Assembly: GCA_031276295.1 (NCBI GenBank)
Contig: JAISNI010000076.1
Span: 1 to 34,608 of the forward strand
Source of the DNA: Treponema sp.
GTDB lineage: Bacteria > Spirochaetota > Spirochaetia > Treponematales > Breznakiellaceae
Length of the DNA stretch: 34,608 bases
Direction: 5' to 3'
The translations under genes and the position numbers were made by a program. Of this stretch, positions 2,936-14,895 are shown piece by piece (the stretch's first letter is position 1; each line of letters begins with the position of its first letter). The notes beneath the pieces were generated by a model. It did not search any database. It was not told where the DNA came from and worked only from the letters and a program-made list of their open reading frames with translations.

Positions 2936-4608
2936 TATATTGCCGCGTTCCGTATAGCCTCGTCCAGTTGGCTTTGGGATAATCCTGCGGCGATAAACTT
3001 GTTGTAGTATTCTTCCGCCTCCGGGCGTTTGCGGTCAAAGGCGAGGCACAGCAATTTACCGTAATGGTAAACGGAAATGTTCCCGCCTTTTTTGAGCGCC
3101 TGTTCCGCTTCCCGCAGTTCCACCGCGAAGAGCTTCTTCCACACGGCATCGTCGTCGTCATAGATAAAGTAAATTGCCGGGCGGGTGTAATTGCCGTCCC
3201 TGGACAGGAACAATCCCGCCCAGCGCCGGTCCCATTTCTTTTCACTATCGGGAGGGGATAACAAAATTGATGAAAGATAATTCAAATTGCCGTAGGCTTC
3301 GGCCAGGTGGTTTGCAAAGGCAAAGCTGCCGCGCTTCAATTTTTTAAGAACAGGCGCAAGCATATCGTATACTTCCCCCGGGGAATGGATCCTTGCGGCG
3401 GAGAGTACCCGGTAACGCAGCGCATAATCGTCGTGTTCGGGAAGATTGCAGAGGATTTCCAGCTTCGCCCTTGAAGGCGGCGGCGCGTCCCCCCTGCCGA
3501 AGAGCAGTTCATAGAGGCCGGTAAGGTCAAGAATATGCGCCGTTTTTGCGTATGTATCCTTGTCGTACAGGATGTTCTTTACCGTTTCGAGGCCGGCTTC
3601 TTCATGACGGCGGGCAAATACCCGGAGCAGGACTTTCAGTTTTGCCGCGTCCTTCTCCCCCGCGGGAAGCGCCGCCCCGCCCGGAGCGGGTATCAGGTTG
3701 TCAATAAGACGAGATGCCGTGCCTATCATCTTGTCATAAACGGCTGAACTTTCTATAAGGCTTAAAGGTATCTCCAGGGCGCTTATCTGCTTTTTGTCCA
3801 GTTCCGCAAGCAACAGGGCTTCAACCTTTGCCGACTTCATTTTGGCAAGGGCCGTATAGGCCGCTTCCCGTATCTCGGCCTTTCTGTCCCCGGCAAACGC
3901 AACGAGCGTTTCCTCGTAGCGGGAATCCTCCCACAGACAGCGCAGGGCTTCGGCTTTTACCTCGGTTTCCCCTTCGGAGAGGGCCTTTTCCGCAAGCGGG
4001 TACACGGCCTTTCCTTCAATACGGCAAATGGCCCTGAAAACAGCCGCATGTTGGACATTTCCTTTAAGATCGAGGACCGCCTTGAGCGCGGGAACTATCT
4101 CCTTTCCCAGCGCGGGGATGATCGTTTCCGTTACCGTCGTATATGCGGGATTATTTTTGAGGAAGAAAAACGAACAGTAAAAGGGAAACAAGCGGTGATC
4201 GGTATAGATCCCCTCATTGTAGAGGGCTTCCACGGCCTCTTTGCCGCCGGCCTCCCTGCTCCCAAGCTGCTCAAACCTGGACCAGGGTATGCCGTGCTGT
4301 TTAAGGGGACGGGAAGCGTAGGCCATTTCCGAAAGCCCGCCGCCCGTATCGGTACTGCCCTGGGTATAGCGCAGGCTGTAGAGCAGAACGCCCGCTTCGA
4401 GGAGCGCTTCCGGGCCGGCCTTCCCGTCCCCGCCGCAAAGGGCCTCAAGCCTTTCGGCAAGGGCATTGAAGACCGGCGCCTTTTCCCCCAGCTTGCGCAG
4501 GGGGGCGGCGAATTTCTTTATCCGCGGATCGCCTGCGGCAAGGGAACTGCCCGCTATGCACAGGCGGTTAAGTTCTTCCTGTATCTCGTTCAATATTGCC
4601 AAAGCCAT
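2935..4608 (-). CDS. HEAT-repeat protein paired with a SWIM zinc-finger protein
   Basis: This is a 557-residue soluble alpha-helical protein. HEAT-like repeats are clearest at about 160-275 (AEKALSEGETEVKAEALRCL; EIREAAYTALAKMKSAKVEA). The rest is helical with no recognised catalytic motif. It begins 10 nt after the SWIM gene, and its GGAGG overlaps the end of that gene, so the two are almost certainly co-transcribed and may be translationally coupled. SWIM proteins are found with HEAT-repeat, MoxR-type AAA and VWA proteins in other bacteria (E. coli yehI-yehQ is one example). No AAA or VWA partner is present here. A scaffold role is inferred. Its TAG stop is formed at the junction with a copy of the dispersed element. 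Confidence 0.8.
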   Translation of the reverse strand: MALAILNEIQEELNRLCIAGSSLAAGDPRIKKFAAPLRKLGEKAPVFNALAERLEALCGGDGKAGPEALLEAGVLLYSLRYTQGSTDTGGGLSEMAYASRPLKQHGIPWSRFEQLGSREAGGKEAVEALYNEGIYTDHRLFPFYCSFFFLKNNPAYTTVTETIIPALGKEIVPALKAVLDLKGNVQHAAVFRAICRIEGKAVYPLAEKALSEGETEVKAEALRCLWEDSRYEETLVAFAGDRKAEIREAAYTALAKMKSAKVEALLLAELDKKQISALEIPLSLIESSAVYDKMIGTASRLIDNLIPAPGGAALPAGEKDAAKLKVLLRVFARRHEEAGLETVKNILYDKDTYAKTAHILDLTGLYELLFGRGDAPPPSRAKLEILCNLPEHDDYALRYRVLSAARIHSPGEVYDMLAPVLKKLKRGSFAFANHLAEAYGNLNYLSSILLSPPDSEKKWDRRWAGLFLSRDGNYTRPAIYFIYDDDDAVWKKLFAVELREAEQALKKGGNISVYHYGKLLCLAFDRKRPEAEEYYNKFIAAGLSQSQLDEAIRNAAI

Positions 4609-11211: not shown

Positions 11212-11226
11212 TTGAAGAAAGATACT

Positions 11227-13482
11227 ATGAAAAATGCAAAGATTAATTGCGCTCAGAAGGAAAGCGTTTCGTTGAATAAAAAGAATCTTGTTCCGGTTTT
11301 ATTTTTTATTTCCTCGTTTATAGTTTTACTGCTCTCCCTCATTGCCAACAAGATCAGGGGGCATACCGTTGCGATGATGGAAAACGCCATCCAATACCAC
11401 CTTCTCAGTACCGCCATAGCCGCGTCGGAATATATTCCCGCCGAAAACCTTGACCGCTATCACAGTCAGGCGGATATTAACACGCCCGAATACGAAACCT
11501 TGCGGGCAAAGCTGATGGCGTTTGCCCAAAAATATAATGTCCTCTACGTGTATTACTGGCGGGATTTCGGGGACGGCAGGATACAGTACATTGTTGATAA
11601 CGATTTGGACCCCGCAACCCAAATGACCCCCGCCAATTTTTTTGAAATAGACGGGATAGCCCTGGCAGTCCTTTCCGGTAAACCGACGATTACCGATCTT
11701 GGACAATACACTCCCACCTGGGACGGTTTGCTTTCCGCCCTTGCCCCCGTTTACGATGCGGAAGGGAAGCTGTACTGTGTGGCCGGAGTCGACATCACCG
11801 ACGAGGTGATCCTCGCCCAACATAAGGACACCTTTTTACTTAATACCGTACAATTTATCGCGCTGTTTGTTTCTATCGTTATGGGCGGCCTGAGTATGCA
11901 ATTATACCGTAAAAGCGCCTTGAAAAGTGAACTTGCCAGCATTGCGAAGAGTAATTTTCTTGCCAATACAAGCCATGAAATCCGCACCCCCATGAATGCC
12001 ATTATCGGCATGAGCGATCTGGCACTGCGGCAGGAACTGCCCGAGACCGCAAAAAAATATGTTTTAAACATACGCCAGGCGGGGTTAAACCTGCTTTCCA
12101 TCATCAACGATATTCTCGATATTTCAAAAATTGAATCGGGCAAAATGACCATTCAAAATACCGAATATTCTTTTATATCCCTCATCGACGACTGTATCAA
12201 TATAATCCGTATGCGCCTTGAGGGAAGACACATCCGTTTTATCACCGGGATAGACTCCAATATTCCAAACGCCATGATCGGGGACGTAGTCCGTATCAGA
12301 CAGATCCTGCTTAACATCCTGGGCAACGCGGTTAAATACACCAGGGAAGGTTACATGAGTTTAACCGTTACCATGGAACTGCCCCAACGGGCTGCGGAGG
12401 AACATACGGGGAACAGCATTATATTGACCTTTAAAATAACGGATACGGGAGTAGGGATAAAAAAAGAGGATATGGAAAAACTATTCACCGACTACATTCA
12501 ATTTGACAGCCATAAAAACAGGGGGATAGAGGGAACGGGCCTGGGGCTTGCCATAAGCCGGAATCTTTGCCGGCTTATGGGCGGAGACATTACCGTGGAA
12601 AGCATCTATGAAAAGGGAAGCACATTCACCGTTACCATACCCCAAACCGTTAAGGATCCTCAACCCATCGCCAAGATACGGAACGCCGAATCCGTGAAGG
12701 TATTGCTTTATGAACGGCGGGAAATATACGCGGATTCTCTACTCTATTCCTTTCAAAACTTGGGCGTGGATGTTACAAAAACATCGGGGGAAGATCTATG
12801 CGTTTTACTTGAAAAAAAAGATTATTCATTTGTCTTCACGTCTCCCGACATGGCCGAAAAAGTTTTGGAACACATACAAACAAAAAATTTGAAAACCGTT
12901 CCGGTGCTTCTGGCAAGCCTTGACGACATAGACACGTTCCAAAATACCCCCATGTTAAGTATTCCAACCTATACGGCTCCCATCGCCAATATCCTTAACG
13001 GTATAACGGAAAGCTGTTTTCAGGAAAATACGGGAATCTCCTTTACCGCCCCGTCGGCGAAGATACTCATAGTTGACGACATAAGCATCAACATTGAAGT
13101 AGCCAGGAGCCTTCTGGAATTATATCAAACGGATATCGACACCGCTTTAAGCGGAAAGGAGGCGGTACAACTGGCGGAAAAAAACAATTACGACATTATT
13201 TTCATGGATCACATGATGCCGGAAATGGACGGCATAGAAGCGGCGGGGCTCATCCGGGAGGAAGAAAACAGATCGTCCCGCAGGAATGTTCCCATCATCG
13301 CCCTAACCGCAAACGCTCTTGCGGGAATGAAAGAGATGTTTATAGAGAACGGTTTTAACGATTATATCTCCAAACCCATTGAAATTTCCCAAATGGATGC
13401 CGTTATGGCAAAATGGATACCGCTGGAGAAGCGTATAGAGGCCCGGCGGAATAGCGGCCCCTCCCCTCCCCCCCGAATATAA
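11227..13482 (+). CDS. Hybrid sensor histidine kinase with pseudo-receiver and receiver domains
   Basis: The 751-residue membrane sensor has TM1 at about 21-41, an extracytoplasmic region to about 205, and TM2 (FIALFVSIVMGGLSM). The HisKA domain has phospho-acceptor His250 in TSHEIRTPMNAI. The HATPase domain shows ILGNAVKYT, DTGVGI and GTGLGLAIS. Next is a receiver-like segment (about 485-595) without the usual Asp signature, then a full receiver with VDD, Asp661 in IFMDHMMPEMDG, and a late Lys (YISKP). No HPt domain or DNA-binding output is visible, so a separate partner is expected. The ATG at 11227 is taken; a TTG at 11212 adds five residues. AAGAAAG gives weak ribosome-binding support. 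It starts 15 nt after yggS. Confidence 0.93.
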   Translation: MKNAKINCAQKESVSLNKKNLVPVLFFISSFIVLLLSLIANKIRGHTVAMMENAIQYHLLSTAIAASEYIPAENLDRYHSQADINTPEYETLRAKLMAFAQKYNVLYVYYWRDFGDGRIQYIVDNDLDPATQMTPANFFEIDGIALAVLSGKPTITDLGQYTPTWDGLLSALAPVYDAEGKLYCVAGVDITDEVILAQHKDTFLLNTVQFIALFVSIVMGGLSMQLYRKSALKSELASIAKSNFLANTSHEIRTPMNAIIGMSDLALRQELPETAKKYVLNIRQAGLNLLSIINDILDISKIESGKMTIQNTEYSFISLIDDCINIIRMRLEGRHIRFITGIDSNIPNAMIGDVVRIRQILLNILGNAVKYTREGYMSLTVTMELPQRAAEEHTGNSIILTFKITDTGVGIKKEDMEKLFTDYIQFDSHKNRGIEGTGLGLAISRNLCRLMGGDITVESIYEKGSTFTVTIPQTVKDPQPIAKIRNAESVKVLLYERREIYADSLLYSFQNLGVDVTKTSGEDLCVLLEKKDYSFVFTSPDMAEKVLEHIQTKNLKTVPVLLASLDDIDTFQNTPMLSIPTYTAPIANILNGITESCFQENTGISFTAPSAKILIVDDISINIEVARSLLELYQTDIDTALSGKEAVQLAEKNNYDIIFMDHMMPEMDGIEAAGLIREEENRSSRRNVPIIALTANALAGMKEMFIENGFNDYISKPIEISQMDAVMAKWIPLEKRIEARRNSGPSPPPRI

Positions 13483-13507
13483 AAAAGAAAAAAAACGCGA
13501 TTCGCTC

Positions 13508-13536
13508 TTGACATTTTTTTGTTAGTAAATTATAAC
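13508..13536 (+). promoter_or_regulatory. Strong sigma-70-type promoter for a short transcript
   Basis: TTGACA (13508-13513), 17 nt and TATAAC (13531-13536) form a near-consensus promoter after the histidine kinase gene. Transcription should start around 13543. The first gene downstream has its own start region beyond an intrinsic terminator. Confidence 0.8.
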
Positions 13537-13542
13537 ATTATT

Positions 13543-13721
13543 GTAAGTCCTATATAACACATACGGGGTATGTTACTCACCTCTCTTGGCATACCCTGTA
13601 TCCCATTGCCGGAAACCAGCCATTTCCGGCGGTATTTTCCCATAGGCCGGGGAATTTAAAAATAGCCCTCTTTCAGAACCGGGGGTACCATGCCCCAAGG
13701 CATGGTATTTCCGGTTTTTTT
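13543..13721 (+). ncRNA. Candidate small RNA, about 180 nt, of unknown family
   Basis: The segment runs from a near-consensus promoter to an intrinsic terminator in a 300-nt gap. It contains a 12-bp hairpin (13561-13572 with 13590-13601, one G-U pair), an 8-bp hairpin (13608-13615 with 13623-13630), and the terminator hairpin. I could not match it to 6S, SRP, tmRNA, RNase P or a known riboswitch. A 29-codon reading frame (13570-13659) lies inside, but its only ribosome-site-like sequence is a weak GGGG. It could also be an attenuator leader for the downstream polyprenyl synthetase. Confidence 0.6.
13677..13721 (+). terminator. Intrinsic terminator of the candidate small RNA
   Basis: AACCGG (13677-13682), GGG and TACCATGCC pair across the loop CCAA with GGCATGGTA, TTT and CCGGTT, giving an 18-bp stem with three G-U pairs. 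The stem runs into seven T residues (13715-13721). It ends about 60 nt before the polyprenyl synthetase start. Confidence 0.87.
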
Positions 13722-13782
13722 ATGCTTCCGCGCCGGCGGGCCGCAGGCTTCCCCTTTTCGGCCTCCCTGTGTATTATACATC

Positions 13783-14895
13783 ATGCAGCATGAATATATT
13801 GAACGGATTGCAAAGATCGACGCGGTTTTAAACCGCTATTTGCCGGAAAATCCGGGGGATGAGTGGCTTTCGGATTTCTTCCCCGGCCTTGAGGGGAAGG
13901 TTTCCCCGGCCTTGCTCAGTTCCCTTACCCTGCCGGCCCGGGACCTGGTAAACCGGGGCGGAAAACGGTGGCGGCCCCTGCTTACCGTGCTGGTATGCGA
14001 AAGCCTGGGCGGCGGCGATGCCGGTCTGGCATTGACGCCTTTGGTGGAATTTCCCCATAACGCAAGCCTCATTCATGACGATATTGAAGATAATTCCGAC
14101 GAACGCCGGGGAAAACCGGCGGTTCACATCGTATACGGGGTGGACTCCGCCGTCAATTCCGGCTGTTTCCTGTACTTCCTCCCGCTGCTCTCTTTAAGTT
14201 CATGGGAGGAACATCTGGTAAAAGAGCTTAACGTACCGGCGGATAGGGCAACGGAAAGGAAGAATCTGGTGTATTCGCTCTGGGGCGATTACCTGAGACG
14301 GCTCCATCTGGGGCAGGCTATGGATATAACCTGGCATAGGGACTTTGATTCCCTTCCCGCTTTGCCTGAATATTACACCATGTGCGGTATGAAAACCGGA
14401 TGCCTTGCCCGCCTTGCGGCGGTTTTGGGGGCGGTTGCGGCTTTTTCGGTACGGAATGTTCCGCGGCGGGAAGAAGCGGCCCTGCGCGAACGCATAGGGA
14501 GCGCGTCTGAAAACCTCGGCGTGGGGTTTCAGATACTTGACGACGTGAAGAACCTTGAAACCGGCGTTGCCGGCAAGAAACGCGGGGATGATGTCGTCGA
14601 GGGCAAGAAAAGCCTTCCGGTGCTGCTGTACCTTCACCGCAAGCCCGACAAAAGGGAGTTTGTAAGCCGCTGTTTCCGCGCGGCCCGGAACGGCGGGACC
14701 GGGGTTCCTGAAGTGGAGGCCTTGATCGGGGAACTGGCCGCGGAAGGCTGCATAGCCGAAGCCCGGGAGAAGGGTCTGGCCCTCATTAAGGAAGCGGAAG
14801 ATCAATTTGCCGGAATAGTCAACCTGCCTGCTTTCAATTCTGGCACGGAGGCGGGCCGCCGCCTGCTGCTGGGATTCACGGATTTACTCGGTTAG
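13783..14895 (+). CDS. Polyprenyl (isoprenoid) diphosphate synthase
   Basis: The 370-residue enzyme of the trans-prenyltransferase family would condense isopentenyl diphosphate with allylic diphosphates. GGKRWRPLL and the first aspartate-rich motif (LIHDDIEDNSDERRGKPAVH) are present. The second motif reads DDVKN within FQILDDVKN, where DDxxD is more usual. Chain length cannot be read from sequence. The frame extends upstream to an ATG inside the intrinsic terminator, so the ATG at 13783 is preferred. No Shine-Dalgarno is visible; TATTAT ends 5 nt before the ATG, so the mRNA may be leaderless. It heads a run with the bifunctional nuclease and YitT genes. Its TAG stop is the junction with element copy 4. 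Confidence 0.9.
   Translation: MQHEYIERIAKIDAVLNRYLPENPGDEWLSDFFPGLEGKVSPALLSSLTLPARDLVNRGGKRWRPLLTVLVCESLGGGDAGLALTPLVEFPHNASLIHDDIEDNSDERRGKPAVHIVYGVDSAVNSGCFLYFLPLLSLSSWEEHLVKELNVPADRATERKNLVYSLWGDYLRRLHLGQAMDITWHRDFDSLPALPEYYTMCGMKTGCLARLAAVLGAVAAFSVRNVPRREEAALRERIGSASENLGVGFQILDDVKNLETGVAGKKRGDDVVEGKKSLPVLLYLHRKPDKREFVSRCFRAARNGGTGVPEVEALIGELAAEGCIAEAREKGLALIKEAEDQFAGIVNLPAFNSGTEAGRRLLLGFTDLLG

Follow-up and report, generated by a model that had tools for sequence, protein, structure and literature searches.

A predicted, probably iron-regulated small RNA gene in a Treponema genome with relatives in flavodoxin 3'UTRs

Results

A predicted small RNA gene lies between a histidine kinase and a polyprenyl synthetase gene

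The window analysed here is a stretch of 34,608 nucleotides from a Treponema genome. A first-pass annotation had placed an unassigned small RNA (sRNA) within it, between a histidine kinase and a prenyl synthase gene. Our analysis identified the following features at the locus:

11212-13482, + strand: hybrid histidine kinase (Pfam HisKA, HATPase_c, Response_reg), upstream; no functional link shown
13508-13536, + strand: sigma-70 promoter, -35 box TTGACA (13508-13513), 17-bp spacer, -10 box TATAAC (13531-13536)
13520-13537, + strand: operator 1, TGTTAGT-AAAT-TATAACA, of the 7-4-7 palindrome type, overlapping the -10 box
13542-13559, + strand: operator 2, TGTAAGT-CCTA-TATAACA, a two-mismatch copy 22 bp downstream of operator 1, at the predicted transcription start
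13543-13722, + strand: predicted small RNA of about 178-180 nt (from promoter, fold and terminator)
13561-13601, + strand: hairpin 1, 15-bp stem, loop CUCACCUCUCU at 13576-13586 (fold)
13605-13633, + strand: hairpin 2, 11 bp, loop in the ACCAGCC region (fold)
13605-13721, + strand: block homologous to the flavodoxin 3'UTR in genomes G402 and G073 and to other iron-regulon RNAs (local alignment, profile)
13637-13654, + strand: weak third hairpin (fold)
13641-13674, + strand: conserved tract, A-rich then C/U-rich, CATAGG..GGG.ATTTAAAAA.AGC..CTCTTTC, mostly unpaired in the fold
13675-13718, + strand: intrinsic terminator, 20-bp stem and 4-nt loop, then a T run
13783-14895, + strand: polyprenyl synthetase (Pfam), downstream, with its own -10 box TATTAT (13772-13777) abutting the start codon

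The promoter, described earlier as near-consensus, proved to be the best in the window: TTGACA-17-TATAAC matches the consensus at 11 of 12 positions, a score that no other promoter in the 34,608 nt attained and that was reached by 0.085% of local shuffles (13483-13545). A scan demanding T as the final -10 base misses this TATAAC. Across roughly 306 kb of the same genome, a score of at least 11/12 was reached by 12 promoters, and a strong terminator within 350 nt was found for the sRNA promoter only. The strong intrinsic terminator of the first-pass annotation was recovered as a stem of 20 pairs followed by a T run. Together with the fold, promoter and terminator support a self-contained transcript of about 180 nt, as had been proposed. 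At the level of sequence, 13508-13722 is thus a real small-RNA gene; its transcription itself is inferred. The unit was also said to lack a convincing coding sequence, and indeed the longest plus-strand open reading frame (ORF) inside it encodes 29 amino acids (13570-13659), with a start inside the hairpin 1 stem and no usable Shine-Dalgarno spacing.

The transcript 13543-13722 folds at -72.3 kcal/mol compared to -47.9 kcal/mol for shuffled sequences (z = -5.84; 0 of 200 shuffles as good), and the fold without the terminator still stood out from shuffles (z = -2.78; 1 of 200). Hairpin 1 was located exactly where it had been annotated, whereas hairpin 2 extends over 13605-13633 instead of 13608-13630. 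The tract at 13641-13674 is near invariant among the window and loci L175 and L176. The transcript had matched no recognisable RNA family, and the Rfam covariance search correspondingly returned nothing at gathering thresholds and, with lax filters, nothing above chance in the window; the sRNA relatives described below did not match any RNA family either. Elsewhere in the same genome (contig C2, L105 8007-8132, minus strand), a TPP riboswitch above the Rfam gathering score is located behind another TTGACA-17-TATAAC promoter.

With regard to the flanking genes, the histidine kinase (11212-13482) has no close orthologue in G001, the sole other genome of the same genus, where the segment upstream of the prenyl synthase is wholly different. 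Kinase relatives in other genomes did not exceed about 58% identity and offered no further clue. The box in front of the synthetase gene (13772-13783) and those of its orthologues (L007-L035) from many genera are positioned 5-6 nt before the start codon, which suggests that the polyprenyl synthetase mRNA is leaderless in gut treponemes.

The sRNA promoter carries a tandem operator shared with a predicted iron regulon

The sRNA promoter contains a tandem 18-bp palindrome of the TGTTAGTnnnnACTAACA type, at 13520-13537 and 13542-13559. When the own genome was scanned for equally strong promoters, a near copy surfaced ahead of the genes for a DUF6110 protein and a heavy-metal P1B-ATPase. Within the 3.38-Mb genome, TGTTAGTNNNTTATAACA has just two exact matches, operator 1 and the P1B-ATPase promoter, and the shared element TGTTAGTnnnTTATAACA occurs exactly only at the sRNA and DUF6110/P1B-ATPase promoters. 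The ATPase promoter retains the element in other genera, with a near identical tandem layout in G099, and the second operator site is also kept in other regulon promoters, even though it lies outside the search pattern used below. The ideal palindrome TGTTAGTnnnnACTAACA has four sites with up to two mismatches in the own genome, three of them at promoters; the bare count of such sites was not above that of a reversed-pattern control. The best operator-type palindrome of the genome, TGTTAGTTTATACTAACT (C12:61894-61911; L133 1501-1518), is found at the promoter of a gene that encodes a small membrane protein and precedes an FtsX-like permease gene, and this locus is likely another regulon member.

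To search other genomes, we used the pattern TTGACA-N6-TGTTAGT-N4-TATAACA with up to two mismatches. Among 200 family genomes it was found at about 48 places in 41 genomes, compared to one for the reversed control. The genes behind it encode mostly flavodoxin, and also FeoA, the DUF6110 protein, ABC transporters and DUF3793. When 84,980 named genomes were scanned for exact matches, Treponema and other spirochaete metagenome-assembled genomes (MAGs) were returned, many of these hits being the same loci. A rumen Treponema, a Lachnospiraceae MAG and a Clostridiales MAG also matched, and in these the element precedes feoA-feoA-feoB. Flavodoxin and feo together are a signature of iron starvation. 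As the pattern is found before flavodoxin, feoA/feoB and the DUF6110/P1B-ATPase pair, it defines an iron regulon, to which the sRNA promoter would belong by its sequence; iron control is inferred, without binding or expression data.

The same pattern also precedes several noncoding, terminated units. In G013, G358 and G002, three genomes of genus g4, two of g14 (before DUF3793) and one Defluviitaleaceae MAG, the regulon promoter leads into 90-225 nt without an ORF, closed by a terminator. At the g4 and g14 loci (L179, L180, L181, L184 and L185; operator at about 1501), the structured, terminated segment of 105-122 nt upstream of the DUF3793 gene may be either an sRNA or a leader acting by attenuation. 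In the Defluviitaleaceae (Firmicutes) MAG (L237, minus strand, from 3511 downwards), the same operator is followed by about 120 noncoding nt with the C-rich stretch CCCCACCACCTTCC and a terminator, making this unit a candidate for another iron sRNA.

The regulator is probably a DtxR-type repressor

An 18-bp dyad beside the promoter is a feature of TroR/DtxR-type operators, and the 7-4-7 palindrome of the sRNA operator meets it. In L234, the gene after feoB encodes a DtxR-type repressor (PF01325/PF02742), and in L237 a DtxR-family gene with the same domains directly precedes the iron promoter and noncoding unit. Since DtxR-type genes adjoin the operator at these two Firmicutes loci, the regulator is probably of the DtxR type. 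A DtxR gene is also present in one family genome; none was found in the 1.36 Mb (about 40%) of the 3.38-Mb own genome that were examined. In the spirochaete Treponema denticola, the DtxR-type regulator TroR uses an 18-bp dyad operator at a sigma-70 promoter, the published tro operator being of the AATTTTGATATATCAAAA type, and regulates a transport operon in response to Mn and Fe (PMC2628430). Both systems thus have a DtxR-type 18-bp dyad by a sigma-70 promoter in a treponeme. However, the sRNA operator does not match the sequence of the published TroR site, AATTTTGATATATCAAAA being unlike TGTTAGTnnnnACTAACA, and no sRNA is described in the TroR regulon. The repressor would accordingly not act via the published TroR site, and in the absence of binding data its identity remains an inference.

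Relatives of the sRNA follow flavodoxin genes in other treponemes

The block from hairpin 2 to the terminator (13605-13721) aligned locally with the flavodoxin 3'UTR of G402 (Treponema sp. Ct408_bin23), which represents another Treponema genus (score 75.8; z = 22; 0 of 500 shuffles), and with that of its congener G073 (z about 6-7). In both genomes the homologous block comes immediately after the flavodoxin stop codon. A profile built from these three sequences, i.e. window, G402 and G073, matched loci L208, L205, L190 and L198 above the best background in 1.25 Mb of the own genome (13.5 bits), with scores of 31 bits for L208, 25 for the G013 RNA, 18 for the G002 RNA and 15 for L198. Part of the signal stems from the terminator and part from the A-rich and C/U tract upstream of it. 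At L208 (G091:C207; 574-826 and 2342-2450), an apparently broken flavodoxin gene lies behind the iron operator, with the sRNA relative further downstream, past another ORF. The own genome showed no flavodoxin gene within the 1.36 Mb examined.

Other searches were less productive. BLASTN of the RNA gave short matches only, whether against the same genus, 100 genomes of the family or 394 of the order. Most of those inspected fall within ORFs, and the intergenic match L040 and locus L038 likewise led nowhere. G001 holds no detectable sRNA copy. A one-sequence covariance model produced chance-level matches only in 150 genomes, and a pattern scan for hairpin 1 in genome and viral collections found nothing.

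The first hairpin provides a second connection. Its loop (CUCACCUCUCU-UGGC) has ACCUCUCU-YGGC in common, exactly, with a second hairpin family, here termed module A (GGAATTTGCCGCUACCUCUCUCGGCGGATTC), whose members lie either in flavodoxin 3'UTRs or downstream of the iron promoter: it is found in the flavodoxin 3'UTRs of G289, G019, G352, G066 and G048 (the latter with CAACCUCUCUC) and near the ATPase gene in G054. In 2.2 Mb of DNA examined, CT[N]ACCTCTCT[CT]GGC occurred solely in the window and in this flavodoxin-3'UTR hairpin family; in G013 and G358 the hairpins carry variants of the C/U loop. That hairpin 1 and the module-A family share an ancestor appears likely from these motifs. It is not proven, because the stems differ and an nhmmer sequence profile of the module-A family alone does not match the window. 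Covariation of hairpin 2 in the module-A family was modestly above shuffles (94% of cells paired; two pairs with double changes). The conservation of both hairpins in relatives, named in the first-pass annotation as a check on its reading, thus held in part: the hairpin 1 stem is not conserved, whereas its loop motif is kept, as is the block from hairpin 2 to the terminator in the flavodoxin 3'UTR of another genus. The window RNA hence meets both traits of the flavodoxin-3'UTR RNA family, the homology to the 3'UTR block and the ACCUCUCU loop in the first hairpin, and the sRNA very probably belongs to an undescribed family with relatives in flavodoxin 3'UTRs.

Complementarity points to mRNAs of Fe-S proteins

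Potential targets were sought by two tests among 1085 genes, from about 40% of the own genome (1.36 of 3.38 Mb). In an energy-based scan, the loop showed no preference for ribosome-binding sites beyond composition (63 of 200 shuffles as good). Contiguous complementarity of at least 9 nt between the two C/U tracts and ribosome-binding sites was found for seven genes, three of which encode Fe-S proteins: a chemoreceptor with a hydrogenase domain (L316:14352), an aldo/keto reductase (L115:5083) that carries a 4Fe-4S dicluster domain, and a protein of the radical SAM type (L264, minus strand, start at 3857). The enrichment compares to a motif-based baseline of 1.4% (hypergeometric p = 7e-5), and none of 300 shuffled tract pairs was as good. 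As the 9-nt threshold was chosen post hoc, after the matches were known, and the Fe-S baseline motif is crude, we take this enrichment only as a pointer; pairing with targets is inferred.

A model for the sRNA and its alternatives

Taken together, we consider it likely that 13508-13722 is a free-standing, iron-starvation-induced sRNA gene that is repressed by a DtxR-type regulator and pairs with mRNAs of iron-rich proteins to spare iron. When iron is plentiful, the iron-dependent repressor would occupy both operators, covering the -10 box and the start site, and keep the sRNA off. At low iron, the sRNA would be made alongside flavodoxin, Feo and the metal-transport genes; its accumulation under this condition is again an inference. 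The exposed C/U-rich loop CUCACCUCUCU and the tail AGCCCUCUUUC may then pair with the ribosome-binding sites of iron-rich-protein mRNAs, by which translation of these proteins would be stopped and iron spared.

The flavodoxin 3'UTRs allow another explanation. The conserved block might be no more than the terminator and 3'UTR stability element of the flavodoxin mRNA, and the window copy a relic that lost the flavodoxin ORF behind its promoter, without any target regulation. That the block comes directly after the stop codon of flavodoxin in both G402 and G073, and that the examined 1.36 Mb yielded no flavodoxin gene, fits such a history. In a relic, however, one would not expect both operators and an 11/12 promoter to persist. 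ORF-less units with the iron promoter recur in several genera, the C/U loop is identical to the letter in a hairpin with an otherwise different stem, and Fe-S genes have ribosome-binding sites that match the C/U tracts. We therefore regard the relic as unlikely, without dismissing it.

That the iron-regulated RNA acts through a very short peptide, alone or in addition to a function as RNA, appears quite improbable. The 29-aa ORF at 13570-13659 exists, but the position of its start in the hairpin 1 stem and the lack of usable Shine-Dalgarno spacing speak against translation, and the homologous flavodoxin 3'UTR conserves this region as RNA sequence but not as protein.

Even less credit is due to the sRNA being a cis-acting leader of the polyprenyl synthetase gene, i.e. 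an attenuator or riboswitch with the terminator as off switch. The terminator does lie on the same strand, 65 nt upstream of the synthetase gene. Nevertheless, the -10-like box before the synthetase start codon is kept across the family, including the 87%-identical orthologue in G001, whose homology to the window reaches upstream of the gene only as far as about 13740, with neither kinase nor sRNA there. Because the synthetase has its own promoter and exists in G001 without sRNA or kinase, the sRNA is a separate unit. In other genomes, RNA and operator are found beside flavodoxin, not beside the synthetase gene, and an Rfam riboswitch match is absent.

It is scarcely credible that Rfam overlooked a divergent housekeeping RNA, 6S or another: the length of about 180 nt would fit and RF00013 finds no 6S RNA in the own genome, a silence that says little because the model detects 6S in only 5 of 14 control genomes, but RF00013 does not match the window RNA either, the fold comprises three hairpins and a terminator and not a long rod with a central bubble, and the promoter belongs to the iron regulon.

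Discussion

Iron-sparing sRNAs are known from proteobacteria and Firmicutes, where RNAs such as RyhB, PrrF and FsrA are made when iron is short and repress iron-rich proteins. The same logic is expected for the sRNA identified here, which differs from these RNAs in that it has no Rfam match and that its controlling site is not a Fur box. The closest described parallel is IsrR of Staphylococcus aureus, an iron-repressed RNA with Fe-S targets that folds into stem-loops whose loops are C-rich; of its two repressor boxes, the first lies within the promoter and the second shortly after the start site (PMC9410917). The window gene shares the two-box layout (PMC9410917). It would likewise encode an iron-repressed sRNA of about 175-180 nt with stem-loops and a terminator, with C-rich unpaired regions, one of them in the first hairpin loop, and with Fe-S enzyme mRNAs as predicted targets. 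In contrast, sequence and operator are unlike those of IsrR, which is under Fur control, whereas the window sRNA is probably under a DtxR-type repressor and has its relatives in flavodoxin 3'UTRs. By analogy, we infer that the sRNA may work like IsrR or RyhB, outside their sequence families.

As with 3'UTR-derived sRNAs, related hairpins come after the flavodoxin stop codon in at least five genomes, whereas the window RNA has its own promoter and no ORF ahead. The chances appear even that these RNAs form an undescribed spirochaete family of iron-sparing sRNAs that is governed by a DtxR-type rather than a Fur operator and alternates between flavodoxin 3'UTR and free gene, the window copy having arisen when an iron promoter was joined onto a 3'UTR RNA that outlived its messenger. 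The open-access literature describes no iron-sparing sRNA in treponemes (subscription literature was not covered).

Gut treponemes are major members of the termite hindgut community, with an iron-hungry hydrogenase and Fe-S metabolism. If our model is correct, they possess a post-transcriptional iron switch. The operator in turn defines an iron regulon in a group with little experimental data on regulation. Finally, the loci would provide a natural series, from an mRNA tail via a tail with its own promoter to a free gene, for the birth of an sRNA gene from a 3'UTR.
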